The position numbers were made by a program, and so were the translations under genes. 64,000 bases of DNA, taken from assembly GCF_000147875.1 (NCBI RefSeq), contig NC_014507.1, forward strand, positions 186,001 to 250,000, in the 5' to 3' direction. Positions 46,234 through 48,240 of this stretch are shown here, piece by piece. The notes under the pieces are model-generated. The model was not told the DNA's origin. It did not search any database and saw only the letters and a list, made by a program, of their open reading frames with translations. Numbering within the stretch: position 1 is the first letter of the stretch; each line of letters begins with the position of its first letter. The DNA comes from Methanolacinia petrolearia DSM 11571. Its GTDB lineage: Archaea; Halobacteriota; Methanomicrobia; Methanomicrobiales; Methanomicrobiaceae.

Positions 46234-46566
46234 TTATTTTAAAGCCTGTTTTAATGATTTGATAAGTGGAGGAAGGTCATTTTTTACTGTGTCCCAGACG
46301 ATGTCGTAGTTAATATCGAAATATCCATGAATTAATCTGTTTCTCATACTGATCATATGTTTCCATGGGATTGCCGGATATTTCTCCTGAAAGTCTGCCG
46401 AAACAAGATTGGCAGCCTCACCAATGATTTCAAGAAGTCTTATGAGAGCAAGTCCGTAGATTTCATCTGAATCAAGATCCTTTCTTTGAATTCTGCCTGA
46501 AATTTCAAGCGCCTTCTCTGCCGCGTCAACAGCATGAAGAACATAGATCCTGTCATTACGTTCCAT
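46234..46566 (-). CDS. hepT: HEPN-domain RNase toxin, HepT-like
   Basis: This is a 110-residue all-helical HEPN protein (formerly DUF86). The catalytic R-x4-H-x-Y motif is [10 protein letters not shown] (about residue 78-87), and [11 protein letters not shown] and the C-terminal [14 protein letters not shown] are family marks. HepT toxins cut tRNA or mRNA and are blocked when the partner MNT nucleotidyltransferase adds AMP to the Tyr of RxxxxHxY. ATG 46566 overlaps the mntA stop; a GTG four codons earlier is possible. It forms a two-gene toxin-antitoxin cassette. Confidence 0.9.
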
Positions 46567-46861
46567 AGCAGACTTCACTGTTACTGATTACTTCCGCCCT
46601 GAAGTACCTGCTCAGGTCGCCGGGGGTCCTGAGATCGATCTTCCTGTTTCCAAAAATAACTGAAAGTTCTTCCTCCAGATCAAAAATTTTGAAAAGTCCA
46701 GGGGTATGATTGTCTTCAAATTCCACGAGGATGTCGACATCGCTGTCAGGTCCGAAGTCATCCCGGAGTACGGACCCGAAGAGAGCGAATCTTCTTATAT
46801 GATTCCTTTTGCAGAACTCCGCGATCTTTTTTTTCGGGACTTTCAGGTTGGATTCATTCAT
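46556..46861 (-). CDS. mntA: MNT-domain nucleotidyltransferase antitoxin, MntA-like
   Basis: This is a 101-residue minimal nucleotidyltransferase. [26 protein letters not shown] shows the GS-x10-D-x-D active site intact, so an active AMP-transferring antitoxin is expected, modifying the HepT tyrosine. It precedes and overlaps hepT, the usual order. AT-rich sequence upstream to 46987 contains its promoter. Such cassettes move between genomes and often lie in variable regions, and the next kilobase is indeed unusual. Confidence 0.9.
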
Positions 46862-47962: not shown

Positions 47963-48240
47963 AGGGGCATAAGCCCCTGCGGGGCAACCCTGGCATTATT
48001 GAATAGTATCAAGGGAGGGGAAAGGTTCCCCCTCCCTATTACCCTCCCCCACATGGCGATAGGTCACAGTTGGGGATGAACGGGCATCCCCTCCTGCTCC
48101 ATAAAGGGCTGTCGCCCTTTCAATGTCTCTAAAAGTTTGTTCTCCCCGGCCGAAAGGCCGGGTTATCGCCATAGCGTAAAGCCCTGGGGTCAGGGCGTGT
48201 TCGCGGAGCGGATGCGAAGCGAACTTGCGCAAGGGTTGCC
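47963..48240. ncRNA. Highly structured GC-rich noncoding element (candidate RNA or repeat)
   Basis: In the 457-base gap 47870-48326 no credible gene exists, yet perfect complementary segments are dense. AGGGGC/GCCCCT (47963-47978) and the overlapping alternative GCCCC/GGGGC (47973-47985) come first. Then GGGAGGGG/CCCCTCCC (48013-48036), GGGGATG/CATCCCC (48072-48091), AAAGGGC/GCCCTTT (48103-48120), CCCGGCC-GAAA-GGCCGGG (48145-48162), GCCCTG/CAGGGC (48181-48196) and GTTCGC/GCGAAC (48199-48224). Two long-range pairs enclose them: GGCAACCC (47983-47990) with GGGTTGCC (48233-48240), and ATGGCGATA (48053-48061) with TATCGCCAT (48164-48172), the latter enclosing three hairpins. The GAAA tetraloop favours the plus strand. 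It may be a folded RNA or a mobile repeat; there is no second copy in this window. Confidence 0.45.

Follow-up and report, generated by a model that had tools for sequence, protein, structure and literature searches.

A dense cluster of hairpins in the chromosome of Methanolacinia petrolearia is very probably one copy of a high-copy, modular, hairpin-rich and non-coding repeat, a non-autonomous mobile element or the remains of one, with a fragment of a second copy lying inverted alongside. As judged from sequence comparison, the repeat is best placed among the small interspersed repeats as a new family, BOX/BIME-like and carrying an ISL3-related 3' module. It is present in many copies, is modular, lies between genes and keeps its structure. 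Its sites are shared with a sister species and hold differing occupants, and a MITE containing its 3' module in a related genus is bounded by target duplications. The following course of events is proposed. (i) A transposase acting in trans on structured ends would have spread the copies. (ii) A link between this spread and replication would account for orientations that follow the replication arms. (iii) Old sites would subsequently have undergone local duplication, nesting and deletion, giving the mosaics and the apparent flips. (iv) The hairpins would be recognized as DNA, and an effect on the mRNA ends of neighbouring genes, if any, would be secondary.

Anatomy of the hairpin cluster

The window is the whole stretch of 64,000 nucleotides that was analysed, and positions are given within it. 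The original prediction described dense, exact hairpins at 47963–48240, and every motif it named is in place. These are the exact pairs GGCAACCC (47983)/GGGTTGCC (48233) and ATGGCGATA (48053)/TATCGCCAT (48164), the sequence CCCGGCC-GAAA-GGCCGGG (48145), and the alternative partners AGGGGC (47963), GCCCCT (47973) and GGGGC (47981). Further stems are GGGAGGGG..CCCCTCCC at 48013, GGGATG..CATCCC at 48073, AAAGGGC..GCCCTTT at 48103, GCCCTG..CAGGGC at 48181 and GTTCGC..GCGAAC at 48199. Exact 7-bp local stems number four in the cluster, against a mean of 0.32 per 278 bases, the highest density anywhere in the window. RNA folding gives z = −4.8 for the plus strand and −7.6 for the minus strand, and no dinucleotide shuffle folds as well (0/100). 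The stems exceed chance, and a real multi-hairpin structure is confirmed.

The cluster sits in a gap of 457 bases flanked by two minus-strand genes, one for a DUF6159 membrane protein and one for a KaiC-like protein. It contains a single open reading frame of at least 50 codons (78 aa, minus strand), which has no Pfam match, in agreement with the predicted absence of a credible gene. The neighbours were also correctly named: Pfam identifies a HepT-like (PF01934) and MNT nucleotidyltransferase (PF18765/PF01909) pair at 46234–46861 and two KaiC-like ATPases nearby.

Homology and module maps place the feature proper at about 48012–48240 on the minus strand, as one copy of a modular dispersed repeat, and not over the whole of 47963–48240. 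The window minus strand is the canonical orientation. The canonical element is about 210–340 bases long. Its 5' part comprises an H0 hairpin GGGGCATAAGCCCC (A' copies only), an A or A' hairpin domain and a GCGATA junction. The middle holds an Hp hairpin CCCGGCC..GGCCGGG, optional D hairpins and an AT-rich spacer, and the 3' part consists of a B hairpin, the motif GACYTATCRC, a G-rich mirror GGGGGAGGGTNNNAGGGAGGGGG and a terminal arm CCCCCTCCC. The parts assigned in the window are as follows; G000 denotes the M. petrolearia genome and C1 its contig.

48012..48240 (5' end 48240, 3' end 48012), minus strand: A-type repeat copy of about 229 bp, assigned by homology to about 40 genome places, module maps and a covariance-model match (G000:C1:234012-234104:-)
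48174..48240, minus strand: A domain, in which GGCAACCC precedes a predicted three-way arrangement, GCGCAAG..CTTTRCGC around the GTTCGC..GCGAAC and GCCCTG..CAGGGC hairpins (position, fold, 31 A-type sequences)
48164..48173, minus strand: junction J (GGCGATA), which could pair at long range with TATCGCC at 48053–48059 (pair present; no significant covariation in 49 copies)
48145..48162, minus strand: Hp hairpin CCCGGCC-TTTC-GGCCGGG, short form (module map; compensatory changes in A' copies)
48103..48120, minus strand: D2-like hairpin AAAGGGC..GCCCTTT, an optional module whose insertion point varies among copies (module maps)
48052..48100, minus strand: B hairpin (GGAGC..GAC) and conserved motif GACYTATCRC (alignments; compensatory changes)
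48028..48050, minus strand: G-rich mirror repeat GGGGGAGGGTAATAGGGAGGGGG (four-G-tract motif in 58/71 copies)
48013..48036, minus strand: terminal hairpin T, GGGAGGGGGAACCTTTCCCCTCCC, the 3' end of the element (flank and end analysis)
47963..47991, plus strand: inverted 5'-end remnant (H0 hairpin GGGGCATAAGCCCC and GGGGCAACCC) of a second, truncated A'-type copy (module maps)

Several features to which the original prediction gave weight take on another meaning in this arrangement. The stem GGCAACCC/GGGTTGCC, thought to close the whole element, joins the element to the inverted remnant of another copy and is therefore a junction product. Inverted A/A' combinations of this kind recur in the module maps at four further loci (L044, L055, L071 and L073). 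The H0/A' unit conserves the mutually exclusive stems of the 5' end, which in the window belong to the remnant and fall outside the element proper. The GAAA tetraloop exists on the plus strand, but only there, and most other copies carry an additional GGACGCTACCC..GGGTAGCCTC hairpin at the Hp tip. The mirror-symmetric G-rich tract could form a G-quadruplex or a purine triplex. Of the 66 copies scored at 48028–48050 and homologous positions, 65 have A or T as the base that interrupts the mirror.

Copies, genomic sites and ends

A BLAST-type search of the genome (2,843,290 bases, one contig) returned 67 matches at about 40 places. A covariance model was built from the 3' part of the repeat, a strong match being one of at least 50 bits. 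It found 61 strong matches in the chromosome, at 53 places more than 2 kb apart, so that the copies are many, dispersed and intergenic. With about 60 copies per genome, the notion of a unique or switching RNA is not supported. Two congeneric genomes carry comparable loads. Module maps of 40 loci show defined modules in variable combinations. When 150 genomes of the order were drawn, 52 matched the 3'-module model; the strong matches came from several genera of the family and, outside it, from the single genome G138, which belongs to another family. Among the weak matches in further families, of which only a few were inspected, is a different palindrome. Viral contigs gave no match to the repeat. 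Contigs of the sister genome G001 end inside repeat copies (L075, L076 and L080), so draft genomes may undercount the repeat.

The 40 places comprise 19 convergent, 15 tandem and six divergent gaps. Convergent gaps are thus more frequent than in the window, where they make up 4 of 21 (Fisher p = 0.03, with ORF-based gene calls). No constant gene neighbour accompanies the copies at these 40 places. In the sister species, sites with roughly 86–95% identical flanks are usually occupied by the element too. Since sites are so largely shared, recent mobility in Methanolacinia is not demonstrated. Five orthologous sites hold elements of opposite orientation and often of another type (L070/L077, L041/L086, L060/L139, L145/L078 and L207/L084). 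Head-to-head pairs also occur, for example at L140, a pattern that suggests differential loss, among lineages, of members from clusters of inverted copies.

The two ends of the Methanolacinia element are unlike each other. Copies have near-terminal palindromes and lack terminal inverted repeats (TIRs). The ends of 55 copies show neither a flanking inverted repeat nor an excess of direct repeats indicative of target-site duplication; a weak direct-repeat excess in the 40-nt flanks includes the tandem copy L058. By its own ends, then, the repeat does not qualify as a MITE. The 5' flank showed no conserved target tetranucleotide, the terminal hairpin is not followed by a T run, and a clean empty site was not found. 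For L083, the counterpart L205 is without the module but contains other repeats, which makes it an ambiguous candidate for an empty site. A mobile repeat, named in the original prediction as the alternative to an RNA, is the better reading of the two, although the terminal repeats and target duplications expected of it are absent from the Methanolacinia copies and present in a relative.

The 3' module, insertion sequences and replication

That relative belongs to a related genus (genome G014), in which the 3' module lies inside an element of 385 bp that is present as 15 full-length, nearly identical copies (G014:C1, 15 places, L119–L132 and L159–L176). The element ends in imperfect 21-bp TIRs, GACTCTTCGCCATATTTCTGA / GGTTCTTCTCCATTTTTCTGA, and 13 of the 15 copies are flanked by perfect target duplications of 8 bp; it is a MITE. 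A longer copy of 662 bp (L129) retains more internal sequence, including an N-terminal ISL3-like peptide (CPKCG), which is a resemblance only, with no Pfam match in G014. In a further genome (G005), the 3' module directly adjoins sequence for the C terminus of an ISL3-family transposase (PF01610), and a similar inverted end lies beyond. The MITE is thus apparently of ISL3 descent, and in those genera the 3' module would belong to the end of an ISL3-type element. The B hairpin, GACYTATCRC, the G-rich mirror and the terminal hairpin are common to this ISL3-related MITE and the Methanolacinia repeat. TIRs and 8-bp duplications set the MITE apart; both are missing from the Methanolacinia repeat, which has the A, H0 and Hp modules instead. 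At L180 (G014:C1:1050500-1054500), a transposase ORF of 323 aa, IS1634-type by eye, and IS21-like ORFs lie beside a MITE fragment. This transposase has relatives at roughly ten sites in G014 and at a few in G012. As a partner of the MITE, the IS1634-like transposase was rejected, being outside the TIR.

Orientation relative to GC-skew arms, estimated from 20 sampled windows per genome, follows the same rule in both genera. The G-rich strand is opposite the positive-skew strand at 14 of 15 MITE places in G014 (p = 0.001), and the exception sits near the skew switch. The bias in M. petrolearia is modest, with 33 of 47 copies obeying the rule (p = 0.008). It first came to light when the chromosome was divided into halves at its midpoint; with a correction for the choice of arms, an arc scan gives p = 0.03. 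The direction of neighbouring genes fails to explain it. Replication-coupled orientation is known for several insertion-sequence families, IS200/IS605 included (PMC5371812), and the skew bias therefore fits a mobile origin. This orientation signal can be tested in more genomes.

The same bias is compatible with a special case of the mobile-repeat reading, in which the repeat would be a palindrome-ended element of IS200/IS605 type that travelled in single-stranded form with the help of a Y1 transposase since lost. Like the PATEs of Haloquadratum walsbyi (PMC3119063), the repeat is archaeal, has no TIRs, carries palindromes near its ends (H0 in A' copies, and T), does not duplicate its target and is too short to encode a transposase. 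PATE palindromes, however, match IS605-type transposons (PMC3119063), and no transposon of this type with ends matching the repeat was found in the M. petrolearia genome. A search of this genome for the Y1 transposase (PF01797) gave no match while detecting its controls, and the flanks of the single TnpB-like gene hold no repeat modules. Y1 transposase and TnpB were accordingly dismissed as mobilizers, the one absent and the other without matching ends, and the repeat is not classed as a PATE. The special case is unlikely, given also the lack of a conserved target tetranucleotide and the presence of the 3' module in an ISL3-type element that does duplicate its target. A search of the M. petrolearia genome for an ISL3 transposase likewise found none; the failure to find a mobilizer in this genome weighs against the mobile-repeat reading.

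A bolder, and quite unlikely, extension of the mobile-repeat reading treats the 90-bp B/G-mirror/T module as a portable cis-acting structure. It would have been exchanged between otherwise unrelated archaeal mobile elements, the TIR-bounded ISL3-type MITE and the TIR-less modular repeat, and would tie insertion or survival to one replication strand, for example through folding on the G-rich strand. If this were true, the same skew orientation in two genera would be explained.

Structural conservation and comparable repeats

Hairpin structure is kept by compensatory change, the internal hairpins going beyond controls. The B hairpin and T arm show 44 doubly changed cells against 17 in shuffled alignments, with slid controls reaching at most 10; the 5' (A') domain shows 43 against 16.5, with slid controls at most 13. 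The multi-hairpin structure that had been predicted is thereby borne out as a conserved one. Neither long-range pair is upheld, the outer one being the junction product described above. The J/B2 pair ATGGCGATA/TATCGCCAT, 9 bp in the window copy, had been taken for a long-range stem enclosing three hairpins. Among 49 copies, only GATA/TATC is kept; this core is almost without variation and hence uninformative on pairing, and the extension pairs no better than shuffled sequence. J/B2 was therefore rejected as a conserved helix.

Whether the hairpins act as RNA or as DNA is not separated by these data, and a strand-specific RNA has left no clear sign. Outside the T helix, G-U combinations occupy 15 cells and A-C combinations 22, an A-C cell on one strand being G-U on the other. 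The T helix has 28 G-U and 9 A-C cells, counts that are not decisive because its 3' arm is misaligned by variation in loop length. Median folding z over 40 copies is −4.95 for the sense and −5.05 for the antisense strand, although 27 of the 40 reach a lower energy on the sense strand. As neither strand folds better overall and G-U is not above A-C outside the T helix, RNA is not favoured over DNA hairpins.

These observations bear on the proposal that the repeat is a conserved family of structured non-coding RNA, either a small RNA or a cis-regulatory RNA, that is multicopy, retains an RNA function and is read from the minus strand. In its favour are the compensatory changes seen in several helices, a fold far better than that of shuffles and the conservation of the 3' module across several genera. 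The proposal is nevertheless very unlikely in view of the similar folding of both strands, the G-U and A-C counts, the want of a constant gene neighbour and the opposite directions taken at orthologous sites; moreover, an Rfam search found nothing at the gathering thresholds, and below these its matches were at chance level. The case carries a caution: even where a single intergenic gap holds a strongly folding sequence with genuine compensatory changes, that sequence may not be a unique RNA. Least probable of all is that the repeat has been domesticated to act at 3' ends, as a bidirectional terminator or mRNA stabilizer selected at many loci between convergent genes. The convergent-gap excess, the strong hairpins at the ends and the retention of sites in the sister species despite changing occupants speak for this; against it stand the 21 of 40 places that are not convergent (six of them divergent), the hairpin without a following T run and the same convergent excess in BOX and RUP, which are read as parasitic (PMC3049150).

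The mobile repeat preferred here has its closest parallels among bacterial interspersed repeats. BOX repeats of Streptococcus pneumoniae are built of boxA, boxB and boxC modules and are in excess in convergent gaps (PMC3049150). The Methanolacinia repeat resembles them as a small, modular interspersed repeat of high copy number, with a strong fold, an excess between convergent genes and no easily comparable empty site. It differs in its archaeal host, in having modules in either orientation and in sharing its 3' module with a transposon-derived element; a relation in sequence is not claimed. BIME/REP elements are likewise intergenic mosaics of palindromic units in partly alternating orientation, but the Methanolacinia units are far longer than the 20–40 bp REP, and the Y1-type transposase family associated with REP was not found in the genome. 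Archaeal methanogens would thus carry modular repeats of BOX-like kind, with one module linked to an ISL3-type element. No published description of the repeat was found in the literature searched, and it is not mentioned in the available parts of the genome reports of the strain (PMC3035365, as Methanoplanus petrolearius SEBR 4847) and of the genus revision.

Related motifs occur in other settings. In another family of the order, L135 (G075) and L136 (G050) contain a long palindrome, TATCGCCATAGGGGGGAGGGGACAGGGGAGGGGGG..CCCCCCTCCCCGTCAGCCCCTTCCCCC..GCGATA, which resembles the J and G-mirror parts of the Methanolacinia repeat. A second repeat family is present in the M. petrolearia genome itself, at L210 (G000:C1:1695000-1695900) and at other weak matches to the covariance model. 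It has a B-like hairpin and GGCCTATCAC, then GAGAGGCCCCGGGGTCGGGGCC, in three tandem copies with a period of about 320–330 bases, and it shares the motif GRCCTATCRC, without the G-rich mirror.
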